A stretch of 42,775 nucleotides of DNA. Source: Candidatus Gastranaerophilales bacterium. GTDB lineage: Bacteria; Cyanobacteriota; Vampirovibrionia; Gastranaerophilales; Gastranaerophilaceae. The position numbers and the translations under genes were made by a program. Shown here piece by piece: positions 13,131 through 18,455 of the stretch. The notes below the pieces were generated by a model, which was not told where the DNA came from, made no database searches, and saw only the letters and a list, made by a program, of their open reading frames with translations. The stretch spans positions 1 to 42,775 of the forward strand of contig CALVEJ010000009.1 in NCBI GenBank assembly GCA_944326535.1, in the 5' to 3' direction. Within the stretch, counting starts at the first letter, position 1. Every line of letters begins with the position of its first letter.

Positions 13131-13793
13131 TTAAACCAAACCTTCTTTTATAGCTTTTACTGCAGCCTGTGTACGATCATCAACAACAAGTTTTTGAATT
13201 ATATTGCACACATGAGCTTTAGCGGTATGTTCGCTTATCGTCAAAGTATTAGCTATTTCAGAATTTGATTGTCCGTCTACTACAAGCTTTAAAACCTCAT
13301 ATTCTCTTTCGGTAAGATTGGCATGCTGAGCCCTGAAAGCAGCTCTGGAATTCTGTTTTGCCGGGATAAAGCAGGAGGATTTATCTCTGATTAAAGGAAC
13401 AATCTGAGGATCAAGCCATATTGCGCCGTCACTAACCGATTTTATGACCATTGTAAGAAGCTCTGTGTTAATGTCCTTTAATACATAGGCGTAGGCACCC
13501 GCACTCAGGGCATCCATAACCTCTTTTTCATTAATATGAGAAGTAAGCATCATAATTTTTTGATCGACATTATTTGCCAAAATCCGCTTTGTTGCTTCAA
13601 TACCCGATATATCAGGCAATCCTATATCCATAAGAATTACATCAGGGTTTAGTATCTTTGCCTTTTCAACGGCTTCTTTACCTGTTTCTGCCTCTGCAAT
13701 AAGTTTTATATCCTGTGTATCATTAAACAAAGACCTTAACCCTACTCTCAAGAGTTTTTGATCTTCTACCATAAGAATTGATACAGACTTCAT
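13131..13793 (-). CDS. NarL/FixJ-type response regulator
   Basis: A two-component transcription regulator of 220 residues. The receiver domain (1-~120) has acidic pocket E10/D11, phosphoacceptor D56 (DVILMDIGLP), T84 and K106 (YVLKDIN). The LuxR-type HTH is at ~157-218 (NLTEREYEVLKLVVDG, ISEHTAKAHVCNIIQKL). The ribosome site is GGAG, 8 bases before the ATG. No histidine kinase lies in the window, so it is an orphan here. It is divergent from the methyltransferase operon across a 302-base region holding three copies of a ~30-bp repeat, making it a natural candidate regulator of that operon and of itself; this is inference from position only. Confidence 0.93.
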   Translation of the reverse strand: MKSVSILMVEDQKLLRVGLRSLFNDTQDIKLIAEAETGKEAVEKAKILNPDVILMDIGLPDISGIEATKRILANNVDQKIMMLTSHINEKEVMDALSAGAYAYVLKDINTELLTMVIKSVSDGAIWLDPQIVPLIRDKSSCFIPAKQNSRAAFRAQHANLTEREYEVLKLVVDGQSNSEIANTLTISEHTAKAHVCNIIQKLVVDDRTQAAVKAIKEGLV

Positions 13794-13909: not shown

Positions 13910-13939
13910 TTATTACTATTCGATATATAGTGATAACAC
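13910..13939 (+). repeat. 30-bp motif, copy 1
   Basis: Core CGATATATAGTGATAA at 13921-13936. First of three direct copies between the divergent response regulator and methyltransferase genes. The rest of this 302-base region (13794-14095) is A/T tracts plus the promoter at 14061-14089; no small gene is apparent in it. Confidence 0.8.
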
Positions 13940-13961
13940 TATTCTTCGTGATGTTAGTTAT

Positions 13962-13991
13962 TTATAACGATACGATATATAATGATAATAA
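13962..13991 (+). repeat. 30-bp motif, copy 2
   Basis: Core CGATATATAATGATAA at 13973-13988, 52 bases after copy 1. Its left flank TTATAACGATA closely resembles those of copies 3 and 5. Confidence 0.8.
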
Positions 13992-14007
13992 TCACAGACA
14001 CATGTTG

Positions 14008-14037
14008 TTATATCGATACGCAATATAGTGATAATAT
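14008..14037 (+). repeat. 30-bp motif, copy 3
   Basis: Core CGCAATATAGTGATAA at 14019-14034, 46 bases after copy 2, ending 23 bases before the -35 box of the methyltransferase promoter, as expected of an upstream activator or repressor site. Confidence 0.75.
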
Positions 14038-14060
14038 TTTTATTAAGTTAGTAAAATAAA

Positions 14061-14089
14061 TTCACATAAATAATACCCATGCCTATAAT
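14061..14089 (+). promoter_or_regulatory. Promoter of the methyltransferase operon, probably leaderless
   Basis: TTCACA (14061-14066), 17-base spacer, TATAAT (14084-14089), then exactly 6 bases to the ATG at 14096. There is no Shine-Dalgarno sequence, so the transcript most likely begins at or next to the start codon. Confidence 0.75.
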
Positions 14090-14095
14090 AAAAAT

Positions 14096-15202
14096 ATGGA
14101 AATTGACAAAAAATCATTCAAAAACAAAATAAACTTTTTATTTACTGCCGACGGATCAGCAGGATTGTACAATATGGAAGTAGATGATGTTTATCATTCT
14201 GTATACGGCGCAAAATCAGAAGCTATAGAAAAATTCATTATGCCTCTCGATTTTGAAAAAATATTTTTTAACCGAAAAGAACTAAAAATCTTAGACATTT
14301 GTTATGGAATCGGGTATAACACAAAAGCACTAATAAAAAAAATAATAGAGACAAAATATATTGGGAATGTAGAAATTGATTTGTTGGAATACAATTTAAA
14401 TCTTATACTAGTTTCTCCTTTTATAAAGGACGGGTTTTTCAAAACATATCCTGAAGTATCATATGCGCTCATTCAAAACCTGCTGCACATCATTTACGAA
14501 AACAAAGATGAGCTTTGTTCAATGCTGAATAAATCAACAAACAAAAAATTCTATGAACCGTTTTATCGCCATTTAATTAAAAAATTTAAAAACTTCCGGT
14601 ATAATTTATACCCCCGTGAGAAAAATAACGCCTTCTTACATAATATATATTATCACTGTATATCGCATAGCATGAAAAACAGGTTAAAATACCTTAAAAA
14701 TAAGAATTTTGTAATTACACCTCATATAGGCGACGCAAGACAAGCTGTAAAAGAGCTGTCAGGCTGTTATGATATTGTCTTTTTAGATGCATTTACGCCG
14801 GCAAAGCAGCCGCTTTTGTGGACACTGGATTTTTTTAAGGAGCTTTACAGAGTCACCAAAAAAGATTGCATGATACTTACATACTCAAATTCATCATCCG
14901 TCAGACATGCAATGCTTGAGTCAGGATTTTTTGTCGGAAAACTTTTTGACAAAGAAAATAGAAACTGCGGAACATGTGCATCAAAAAATCAGGATTACAT
15001 AAAAAACAAACTTGATGATTTTGATCTGGGGTTGATGAAAACTAGTGCGGGTGTTTATTATATTGATAAAAACTTAAACTCATCAAATGATGAAATATTA
15101 AAAGAGCATGAAATGAGGAAACAACAACTTCAGCTTGAATCATCAAGCCAATTTATAAAAAGATACAAAAACAATCAGGAGCATTTAAATGAAAAAATAT
15201 GA
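14096..15202 (+). CDS. MnmC-like SAM-dependent methyltransferase
   Basis: Probable tRNA wobble-uridine methyltransferase (making mnm5U from nm5U), by resemblance to the N-terminal domain of E. coli MnmC. Matching blocks: TADGS (18-22), DDVYHSVYGAKSEA (30-43), SAM motif I ILDICYGIGYNT (65-76), LLEYN (96-100), GDARQAV (212-218) and FLDAFTPAKQPLLWT (229-243). The C-terminus ends in a charged helix. At 368 residues it is longer than the ~250-residue MnmC methylase domain because of a ~100-residue helical insertion (~105-205). Unlike E. coli MnmC it has no fused FAD domain, but an FAD oxidoreductase gene overlaps it by 14 bases. It has no ribosome site. Motif copy 4 lies inside the coding sequence. 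The substrate is inferred. Confidence 0.8.
   Translation: MEIDKKSFKNKINFLFTADGSAGLYNMEVDDVYHSVYGAKSEAIEKFIMPLDFEKIFFNRKELKILDICYGIGYNTKALIKKIIETKYIGNVEIDLLEYNLNLILVSPFIKDGFFKTYPEVSYALIQNLLHIIYENKDELCSMLNKSTNKKFYEPFYRHLIKKFKNFRYNLYPREKNNAFLHNIYYHCISHSMKNRLKYLKNKNFVITPHIGDARQAVKELSGCYDIVFLDAFTPAKQPLLWTLDFFKELYRVTKKDCMILTYSNSSSVRHAMLESGFFVGKLFDKENRNCGTCASKNQDYIKNKLDDFDLGLMKTSAGVYYIDKNLNSSNDEILKEHEMRKQQLQLESSSQFIKRYKNNQEHLNEKI
14646..14675 (-). repeat. 30-bp motif, copy 4 (inside the methyltransferase gene)
   Basis: Inverted relative to copies 1-3. The core on the minus strand is CGATATACAGTGATAA (14650-14665), one mismatch from copy 1; the flank is less conserved. Confidence 0.6.
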
Positions 15203-16463
15203 TCTGGTCATATGCGGCGGAGGAACAGCGGGTGTGGCTGCCGGATATATTTCGGCAAAACTCGGATTAAAAACATTGATTATTGAAAAAAATATTCACC
15301 TTGGAGGAACAATCACTTCTGCTCTTGTTATGCCAGCAATGAAATCTAATACAAAAAATATAAACTGTGATTTTTTGAATGATTTTGTTGCCGAATTAAA
15401 AAAATTAGGCGGTCAGATTGAATATGGAGACGGCAATATAGGCTGGTTTAATCCCGAGCTTTCAAAAATTGCACTTGATAATATGCTCGAACGTGTAAAT
15501 TGTGATGTACTATATAATACTGAAATCGTAAATGCCGTTTCAGAGAAAAATCATGTAAAATCTGTTTGTGTATCCTCAAAAATATTATCACTATATATCG
15601 ACTCGTTATATTTTGTGGACACAACAGGCGATGGAAATTTTTCTGCAATTTTAAAAAATAAAATTTTAGAAGATTTTTCTCAAAGACAACCGATGACAAT
15701 GAGATTTCATGTTTCAGGTGTTGATTTGAAAAAGTTTTCTGACTGGTTGTTAGAATTTGACAAAGACAGAAATGTCTCGACATCATTTGTTATAGACGGG
15801 GACATTCATCTTTCGACTGCCTGCACGTGGGATACAGACAGAAACTGGGCATTATGGCCCATATTTAAGCAAGGTATAGAGGATGGCATAATTACTGAGA
15901 CTGATGCCTCTTATTTTCAGCTGTTTACTATACCCGGTATGCCGGGAACAGTATCTATGAACTGCCCAAGAATATTGCTGGACAAGGATATAGACCCATT
16001 AGATCCGTTACAGGTATCAAAAGCCATATCATATTCAAGAAAGCAGATATTCAGGCTGTATTCCTTTATGCGTAAGTATTTTCCGGGTTTTGAGAACTCG
16101 TTTATTTCAAATATTGCAGATATGTTAGGAGTTAGAGAATCCAGAAGAATCTGCGGAAAAAGAATTTACACAAAGGATGACATTTTAAGCGGAGAAACAT
16201 ACGGAAATCCGGTTCTTCACTCAGATTATCCCATAGATATTCATTCATACAAAAAAGATTCATCAACACTTGAAAAGGCTTCCGTAGAATATGAATTACC
16301 TATTGAGTGCCTGATTTCATCTGATTTTGACAATTTGTTTATGGCGGGCAGAAATATTTCTGCTGATTTTAGTGCACAAGCAGCTCTAAGAGTCCAAACA
16401 TCCTGTTTTTCAATGGGTGAAGCCGTAGCAAAACATATTGCATCAATTCTAATTAAAAATTAG
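15189..16463 (+). CDS. FAD-dependent oxidoreductase (PF12831-like)
   Basis: 424 residues. The N-terminal FAD motif is YDLVICGGGTAGVAAGYISA (4-23), followed by LIIEKNIHLGGTITSALVMP; residues ~142-148 read VDTTGDG and the C-terminus has LFMAGRNISADFSAQAALRV, both typical of the FAD_oxidored family, which has no single known reaction. AGGAG lies seven bases ahead of the ATG, and the start is inside the methyltransferase gene, so the two are co-expressed. In E. coli the second MnmC domain is an FAD enzyme that prepares the methylase substrate; this unrelated FAD enzyme could play that part (inference). Its stop overlaps the stop region of the convergent aldolase-like gene by 4 bases. Confidence 0.85.
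   Translation: MKKYDLVICGGGTAGVAAGYISAKLGLKTLIIEKNIHLGGTITSALVMPAMKSNTKNINCDFLNDFVAELKKLGGQIEYGDGNIGWFNPELSKIALDNMLERVNCDVLYNTEIVNAVSEKNHVKSVCVSSKILSLYIDSLYFVDTTGDGNFSAILKNKILEDFSQRQPMTMRFHVSGVDLKKFSDWLLEFDKDRNVSTSFVIDGDIHLSTACTWDTDRNWALWPIFKQGIEDGIITETDASYFQLFTIPGMPGTVSMNCPRILLDKDIDPLDPLQVSKAISYSRKQIFRLYSFMRKYFPGFENSFISNIADMLGVRESRRICGKRIYTKDDILSGETYGNPVLHSDYPIDIHSYKKDSSTLEKASVEYELPIECLISSDFDNLFMAGRNISADFSAQAALRVQTSCFSMGEAVAKHIASILIKN
15581..15610 (-). repeat. 30-bp motif, copy 5 (inside the FAD oxidoreductase gene)
   Basis: Inverted copy whose 16-base core (15585-15600) is identical to copy 1 and whose flank matches copy 2 (TATAACGA). Conservation of this length inside a coding sequence is notable. 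Confidence 0.75.
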
Positions 16464-17428
16464 CGCAATATATTTTCAAATGCTTGTTTGTCAAAATATA
16501 CCGGACATTCTTTGCGAATTTTTTGCGCACAATCATACATTTCTTCAAAACTTAAGTCTAAAAATATGTTTGCATAATTAGGATGTATATCAAAAAGTCC
16601 TGATACAAAATAAGGTATATTGTATCCCCAGGTATATTTTTTATGTAAATATGTATAATATTTTTCTATTAGGCTTAAATATGTTGATACAGAGTAATTT
16701 TTAGAACCTTTTGCAGCCAGATATCCTGTTAGAATTTCAATAGGCAGATTGCCAGCGCAGCGTCCTATACCATATACAGATGCATCAACAATATCAACAC
16801 CACACTCAATAGCGCATATTGTGTTTGAAAATGCTTGTTGAAGGTTGTTGTGTGAATGAAATCCCAAATTTTCATAACCGCAATTTCTCAATTTTTCAAT
16901 AATTCTTTTTACATCAGACGGATACAAAGAGCCGAAACTGTCAGCAAAATATAAGGCTTTGAGCATCTTTTCAGCGTGATATTTCTTTAAAAGCTGATAA
17001 TGAGAATCTTCAAACCTTGATATTGCCATAAGGTTCAAAAACACTTCATACCCCATTTCAAATAGCTGCGAACAAACAGCAAAAGCTTCTTCTATTCTGT
17101 CGGGATACACAGCAACCCTTACAACGCTGACAGGAGTCTTTTCAGGATTATAATCAATAAAACTTTTTATATCAAATTTACCTATATCAACCATTACACA
17201 TAACTTGCAATTGGCATCTATAGATATAAGATTATTAAGCATTTCATCAGTACAATTATAAAACTTGCCTTTTATATCATTATTCTGAATATTTCTGTAT
17301 CCTATTTCAAAATAGTCAACACCTGACTTAACCGCAGTTTTATATGTTTCAGAAACAATTTCTCCCGTAAAATCCCAGTTATTTACATGCCCACCGTCTC
17401 TGATTGTACAATCCAGTATTTTAACCAT
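16460..17428 (-). CDS. DRE-TIM metallolyase / aldolase-like enzyme
   Basis: A TIM-barrel carbon-carbon lyase or condensing enzyme related to 4-hydroxy-2-oxovalerate aldolase and HMG-CoA lyase; specific substrate unknown. Motifs: KILDCTIRDGGHVNNWDF at the N-terminus (the R-D-G signature and first metal aspartate), MVDIGKF, FADSFGSLYP, the metal-binding H-x-H in LGFHSHNNLQ, and DASVYGIGRCAGNLP. I start at the ATG at 17428 (322 residues) with GGGAG upstream; this ATG lies inside the last codons of the LdpA-like gene (8-base overlap), so translation is coupled. An upstream in-frame ATG at 17494 would add 22 hydrophobic residues with no family support. No acetaldehyde dehydrogenase partner is present. 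Confidence 0.85.
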   Translation of the reverse strand: MVKILDCTIRDGGHVNNWDFTGEIVSETYKTAVKSGVDYFEIGYRNIQNNDIKGKFYNCTDEMLNNLISIDANCKLCVMVDIGKFDIKSFIDYNPEKTPVSVVRVAVYPDRIEEAFAVCSQLFEMGYEVFLNLMAISRFEDSHYQLLKKYHAEKMLKALYFADSFGSLYPSDVKRIIEKLRNCGYENLGFHSHNNLQQAFSNTICAIECGVDIVDASVYGIGRCAGNLPIEILTGYLAAKGSKNYSVSTYLSLIEKYYTYLHKKYTWGYNIPYFVSGLFDIHPNYANIFLDLSFEEMYDCAQKIRKECPVYFDKQAFENILR

Positions 17429-18401
17429 AAATTTCTCCCATATAAGAAAGAGACGTATCAACCAGCTGCTTAGCCTGAAAAAGAGCATTGTCAAAGACTT
17501 CCTTGTTTGTATAGAAATCGTCTCTAATTATAAATTCTCTGACAATTTTTCTTGCATAAGAGCCAATGGCAACACCGTGTGCATCTATATTACACATTTT
17601 TGCCAGCCGGGTTGTTTTCGAATTAGTTCCGCCCGAAAGCATTAAATATACAGGAAGTTTTTCATTTTGAAAAATTTCAGCAGCAGCAACTGCCTGCAAA
17701 GTTGTTTTGTAATCGTCATCCTGACCGCTCATAGGCGCACCGTCAGCTTGAATAATTGTTGTATAAGGTTTTCTGTTCAAAATCAATTTTCGTATTCTTT
17801 TTATCAATTGTTCATTGCCCAATTTGGAACGATCGATACAGATACTCAGCATACCGTCGTAGAGATGATTAATTATATTCCATTTCTCTTCTGTTTCAAA
17901 TTCATCACTGCCTGATGCGTGAAGCTCAATGCAGTCAATTCTTTTATCAATCAGCGGAGGAATTATTTTATTAAAGTCCTGTACTGTTGTCTTCATAGAT
18001 ATCGCATTACTACTGCAGGTTTTAATACAATTAGAACAGCCGATACATCGTTTTTTATCTATCTCAAAACAGCCGTTTTTATGTATAACAGCGTTATTTG
18101 GACAGTTTTTAATACACTCGCTGCAACCGCTGCATTTATCAGGCAGAATTTCCGCTTTACAGACATGAGGATCGCCTTGAATACCCAAACTGACACAAAT
18201 AAAACGATTTTGTTCACAACCTGATTTTTTTATTCCGTTTTTGGCTGCATCAACAATTTCCGGCTTAGCACACACATCAAACAATACTGCGCCTGCACGG
18301 GAATATAAAAAGACAAGTCTTTCAACTTCTCTGACATCCTCATTACCTGCAGCACAAACAAGTTTAAAACATTTTTTTTCGTTTAAAATATCATCCAACA
18401 T
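17421..18401 (-). CDS. ldpA: LdpA-like 4Fe-4S protein
   Basis: Resembles cyanobacterial LdpA, an iron-sulfur protein that conveys redox state to the circadian clock. 326 residues from the ATG at 18401. The start KCFKLVCAAGNEDVREVERL and the phrases LYSRAGAVLFDVCAKPEIV, VSLGIQGDPH, IDCIELHASG, TTIIQADGAPMSG, VYLMLSGGTNSKT and GVAIGSYARKIV follow the LdpA order as I remember it. Two ferredoxin motifs bind two 4Fe-4S clusters: C90/93/96/100 and C119/122/125/129. The C-terminal half looks like a TIM-barrel-like domain. A TTTACA-N16-TAATAT promoter at 18428-18455 supports this start over the ATG at 18443. There is no photosynthesis gene nearby, so its role here is probably a general redox or enzymatic one. 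It is coupled to the aldolase-like gene. Confidence 0.8.
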   Translation of the reverse strand: MLDDILNEKKCFKLVCAAGNEDVREVERLVFLYSRAGAVLFDVCAKPEIVDAAKNGIKKSGCEQNRFICVSLGIQGDPHVCKAEILPDKCSGCSECIKNCPNNAVIHKNGCFEIDKKRCIGCSNCIKTCSSNAISMKTTVQDFNKIIPPLIDKRIDCIELHASGSDEFETEEKWNIINHLYDGMLSICIDRSKLGNEQLIKRIRKLILNRKPYTTIIQADGAPMSGQDDDYKTTLQAVAAAEIFQNEKLPVYLMLSGGTNSKTTRLAKMCNIDAHGVAIGSYARKIVREFIIRDDFYTNKEVFDNALFQAKQLVDTSLSYMGEIYG

Positions 18402-18427
18402 AGCAAAAACCGCACTGTATAAAGCAT

Positions 18428-18455
18428 ATATTAGCATAAACAAAGTTTCTGTAAA
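18428..18455 (-). promoter_or_regulatory. Promoter of the LdpA-like/aldolase operon
   Basis: Minus strand: TTTACA (18450-18455), 16-base spacer, TAATAT (18428-18433), about 20 bases before the start point and ATG region at 18401. It overlaps the opposing ribE promoter. Confidence 0.6.

Follow-up and report, generated by a model that had tools for sequence, protein, structure and literature searches.

What is a bacterium doing with five copies of a motif of about 30 bp, three direct and two inverted, that lie partly between and partly inside genes? Such copies had been noticed in a preliminary description of a 42,775-nucleotide stretch of DNA from a Candidatus Gastranaerophilales bacterium (the window), where they were taken to suggest DNA looping by a specific DNA-binding protein. 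Using a position weight matrix (PWM), we recovered all five copies in the described places and orientations, the motif unit being 28 bp long as delimited by the PWM (Table 1). Every other PWM score in the window was 8 or less, in line with the absence of further good copies that had been claimed. Sites 1 and 5 do carry the same 16-bp core (CGATATATAGTGATAA), as had also been noticed, and this core had six matches with three or fewer mismatches in the window compared with 0.57 expected, a number that was reached by none of 100 shuffles. When the whole 1.97-Mb genome was scanned, the five copies were the five best core matches, with the top ranks confined to this locus, and they were followed by one unrelated match with two mismatches and then by a chance-level tail of matches with three mismatches.

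Table 1. Genes, array sites and dif site of the locus (positions in the window)
Feature	Position	Strand	PWM score	Description
NarL/LuxR-type response regulator gene	13131..13793	-		Pfam PF00072 + PF00196
Array site 1	13911..13938	+	36.8	Left of dif, directed at dif
Array site 2	13963..13990	+	37.8	
Array site 3	14009..14036	+	26.2	
Methyltransferase gene hosting dif	14096..15202	+		ORF; Methyltransf_30, MnmC2-like; Pfam PF05430, E 2.4e-22
dif site, 28 bp	14633..14660	-		TACAGTGATAA-TATATA-TTATGTAAGAA (XerC arm-centre-XerD arm); inside methyltransferase gene
Array site 4	14648..14675	-	30.5	Within methyltransferase gene; overlaps XerC arm of dif
FAD-dependent oxidoreductase gene hosting site 5	15189..16463	+		ORF; Pfam PF12831, E 1.2e-78
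Array site 5	15583..15610	-	38.8	Within FAD oxidoreductase gene; right of dif, directed at dif

Conservation in relatives beyond codon-level expectation, a test that had been set in advance, was indeed found: the core is present at this locus with at most one mismatch in 18 of 23 genomes of the genus, and in both the methyltransferase and the oxidoreductase gene synonymous codons are most conserved at the intragenic motif copy (z of 4.0 and 3.9, respectively), indicating that the DNA itself is constrained. In 20 genus relatives with the locus, copies are found between the response regulator and methyltransferase genes, with one inverted copy in each enzyme gene; in a few genus genomes, one intragenic copy has three mismatches to the core. 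The named relatives that have the locus are mostly metagenome-assembled Candidatus Gastranaerophilales bacteria, and across about 30 genera the motif cluster accompanies the same genes in differing genomic contexts, with a consensus that drifts.

As for the surrounding genes, identity within the genus is 83-92% for the response regulator and thereby far higher than for its neighbours, the methyltransferase (53-68%) and EtfA (55-68%). Downstream of the oxidoreductase gene, the window carries genes for an HMGL-like aldolase and for a protein with an LdpA_C domain (16460-18443, minus strand), a domain known from a cyanobacterial clock-related protein; this pair is absent at the corresponding position in most genus relatives.

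The preliminary description had overlooked an 18-bp palindromic dif core that touches copy 4 (positions 14636-14653; TTACATAATATATATTAT, whose reverse complement is ATAA-TATATA-TTATGTAA). The site has the architecture of dif, with two arms of about 11 bp, a 6-bp centre and a conserved core, and 16 of the 18 core positions are identical to the E. coli site GGTGCGCATAATGTATATTATGTTAAAT located between yneL and hipA, which we take, from established knowledge, to be E. coli dif (the record carries no such annotation). This core is the sole exact copy in the window's genome, and exactly one exact core per genome was found in 50 of 54 genomes, always at the array locus, where three further genomes of the 54 have a core with one mismatch. 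Moreover, the 18-mer is invariant, codons included, in 103 of 106 distinct methyltransferase genes, and a core with no or one mismatch lies near the oxidoreductase gene in seven genomes (five genera) that yielded no methyltransferase gene at this place. XerC/D-like genes were seen in sampled loci of three family genomes, and a search of these same loci yielded no FtsK. The centre of the locus is almost certainly a dif site. A protein-coding coincidence is ruled out, since synonymous codons are fixed and since dif persists without the methyltransferase gene; judging from this pattern, selection acts on the DNA itself and keeps a sharply defined single dif, with an invariant core, inside a protein gene.

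Our literature search turned up nothing on dif in Gastranaerophilales, whose class is usually considered close to Cyanobacteria. Prediction of dif failed in Cyanobacteria, and dif is typically a single-copy site near the skew shift, 93.9% of predicted dif sites being non-coding (PMC3025954). The site described here resembles the 28-bp site of the XerCD/dif system by its core (ATAA-6 bp-TTATGTAA), by its presence once per chromosome and by its place at a GC-skew switch; unlike the mostly non-coding predicted dif sites, it is located inside a protein gene family-wide.

The position on the chromosome was analysed through third-codon-position GC skew, with gene strands read separately, in sampled 20-kb segments. 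At the locus, plus skew gives way to minus skew in two genomes with long contigs: in G157 between 227 and 262 kb, where dif is at 236.8 kb, and in G027 between 762 and 832 kb, where dif is at 806 kb. With a G-rich leading strand, a terminus should show this sign; near the locus in the window's own genus, the skew is too weak for a decision. The position of dif, central in the array and at the GC-skew switch, points to a chromosome terminus, not to a promoter, and the locus is most likely the place where replication of the circular chromosome ends and the copies are separated.

We found the array conserved throughout the Gastranaerophilales family, at 113 distinct loci on which the family profile was rebuilt (all assemblies being drafts, mostly metagenome bins). 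With this profile, the site density within 1 kb of dif was 2.7 per kb on the left and 1.3 per kb on the right, and 797 kb of DNA taken from elsewhere in three family genomes held no site with a score of at least 16. A site is also found at dif itself (with a score above 14 at 102 of the 113 dif copies), besides which most loci hold three to five sites, and the commonest spacing between neighbours is 42 bp, or about four helical turns. Taking the stronger strand at each site centre, we counted 241 plus and 29 minus sites left of dif, and 190 minus and 20 plus sites right of it. The majority per locus is directed inward in 98 loci versus 2 on the left and in 98 versus 0 on the right, the remainder being ties (Fisher p of 2e-76 for polarity, a value that overstates independence as the loci are related). 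Polarity is weakened at palindromic sites, where both strands are found at one centre (61 cases). The natural reading of such opposed, locus-confined sites is that a sequence-specific DNA-binding protein recognizes them, as had been proposed. We thus describe the locus as a terminus element made of dif and of a polar array of putative binding sites for a protein, and the array very probably belongs to a terminus/dif complex. No description of a polar array around dif was found in the dif literature that we searched. A mobile or repeat element was rejected, as the copies are at fixed places in distant genomes and absent from the DNA sampled elsewhere, and so was an RNA element, as there is no Rfam match and sites are on both strands.

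How might such an array act? In the Tus fork trap, groups of polar sites are opposed, with dif between the innermost ones, and the RTP trap is also made from opposed clusters; no fork traps other than those of Tus and RTP are described, and these two are regarded as convergent and occur in few bacteria (PMC10331603). Opposed groups of sites enclose dif here as well and, given this Tus-like layout, we tentatively prefer, by analogy, a polar replication fork barrier as the leading mechanism of the array. A dedicated trans-acting protein would bind the array sites of about 28 bp, and the bound sites would be polar barriers, so that each replication fork could enter and could not leave; forks would then fuse at dif, where chromosome dimers would be resolved by Xer recombination. 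A more specific version, which we regard as possible but on balance doubtful, is that this is a third, family-wide fork trap with an origin separate from those of Tus/Ter and RTP/Ter, with polar sites packed within 1-2 kb of dif and partly overlapping it, a new terminator protein class, and fork fusion and dimer resolution coupled in one nucleoprotein complex. The array is similar to Tus/Ter and RTP/Ter in having two opposed groups of non-identical polar sites around dif, but its sites lie within about 1-3 kb, one of them overlapping dif, whereas known fork traps span far larger regions; its sequence is also unlike that of Ter sites. Among the genes linked to the loci, neighbour clustering gave neither a conserved DNA-binding gene nor a candidate terminator gene: only the two enzyme genes are near-universal, the loci having been largely chosen through one of them.

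Nearly as likely as a fork trap, and a serious if still less than probable alternative, is an accessory or anchoring complex modelled on ArgR/PepA at cer or MatP at matS, in which a protein would coat the flanks of dif and join them, and would control Xer recombination or tether the terminus at the septum without stopping forks. It is ranked so high because one array site overlaps the XerC arm in most loci, which a plain fork barrier does not need and which counts against a fork trap. The frequent spacing of about four helical turns also argues for such a complex, as does the requirement of cer for some 180 bp of accessory sequence to which ArgR and PepA bind (PMC5357621). However, the array sites are located 0.5-1 kb and more from dif, much farther than in cer, which also has no strict inward polarity on both sides. 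The plasmid Xer sites cer and psi are like this locus in combining an Xer core with an extra protein-binding sequence on the XerC side (a putative one here), but the array is chromosomal, present on both sides and at kilobase distance. As for MatP/matS, its sites are similarly restricted to the terminus region, yet they are palindromic and spread over about 800 kb, whereas the array is polar and spans less than about 3 kb. Between the fork barrier and this complex, a family-wide polar array that inverts at dif would provide either a testable third case of a fork trap or an Xer accessory complex of a new kind, and its sequence can serve as a precisely defined bait with which to fish for the binding protein.

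It is unlikely that the array serves transcription, with a regulator, perhaps the adjacent NarL-type one, binding upstream and intragenic operators and controlling the methyltransferase and oxidoreductase genes through DNA looping, along the lines of the preliminary description. Three sites are indeed located in the divergent intergenic region and the response regulator is linked to the array in 40 of 113 loci, but in many genera its clear orthologue (67-72% identical) lies away from the array, and at 27 such loci checked the motif was absent within 1.5 kb in every case. As the motif does not accompany these orthologues, the NarL/LuxR-type regulator next door is probably not the reader of the array, and the proposed looping control was not supported. 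A promoter-centred reading is disfavoured as well, since the array stays with dif in genomes without the methyltransferase gene, and since its centre is dif, at the GC-skew switch, where the orientation of the sites flips.

Even less likely is a replication origin or a ParB-like centromere, with array sites bound by an initiator or a partition protein. In its favour, the rpoBC, atp and spc/str ribosomal-protein operons point away from the locus (contigs G027:C11 and G157:C1); if the locus is a terminus, these operons are head-on to replication, which is unusual and speaks against a terminus. Similarly, ParB (ParB_N) is present in one and missing in 12 of 13 family genomes, and matches to canonical palindromic parS are at control level in these 13 genomes, the window's genome included. 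From these searches, the Gastranaerophilales family seems to partition its chromosome without ParABS; a ParB/parS centromere proper is rejected on the same counts. Against an origin or a centromere, however, the locus has the dif core in its middle, the skew has the sign of a terminus provided that the leading strand is G-rich, dnaA is located elsewhere, and tRNA genes are mainly directed toward the locus (14 toward, 7 away; rRNA is absent from most of these assemblies, making rRNA direction unusable). Least likely of all is that the array sites are extra half-sites for XerC itself scattered around dif: a GATAA end is common to array sites and to about half of the dif XerC arms, but array sites have no XerD arm and the two do not co-vary at the base before ATAA (of 113 dif arms, 53 end in TATAA and 52 in GATAA, and in either group of loci GATAA is the preferred end in the array), hence the reader of the array is probably other than XerC.

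Beside the single dif core, some genomes contain several variants of it with one substitution in the centre (TTACATAATAAATATTAT or TTACATAATACATATTAT), which frequently form inverted pairs with a distance of 160-1000 bp. One such pair is found in the window's genome (contig C33, 19258 on the minus and 19839 on the plus strand), and similar ones in G002, G013, G054, G018 and G170; they are reminiscent of pdif modules, small cassettes with Xer sites at both ends. In G157 (C1:513147-513874), two dif-like sites (TTACATAATATATTTTATCGG and a partial copy) are in opposite orientation about 0.7 kb apart. Two scans of viral contigs also detected the dif core in two small contigs, L412 (IMGVR_UViG_2974617054_000001, 5398 bp) and L422 (4383 bp). 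In L412, the XerD side is the same as at the dif site of the window over the extended sequence TTATGTAAGAAGG, which suggests that L412 may be a phage of the Gastranaerophilales group that integrates at dif, and L422 contains the core twice, as a direct repeat near the contig ends.
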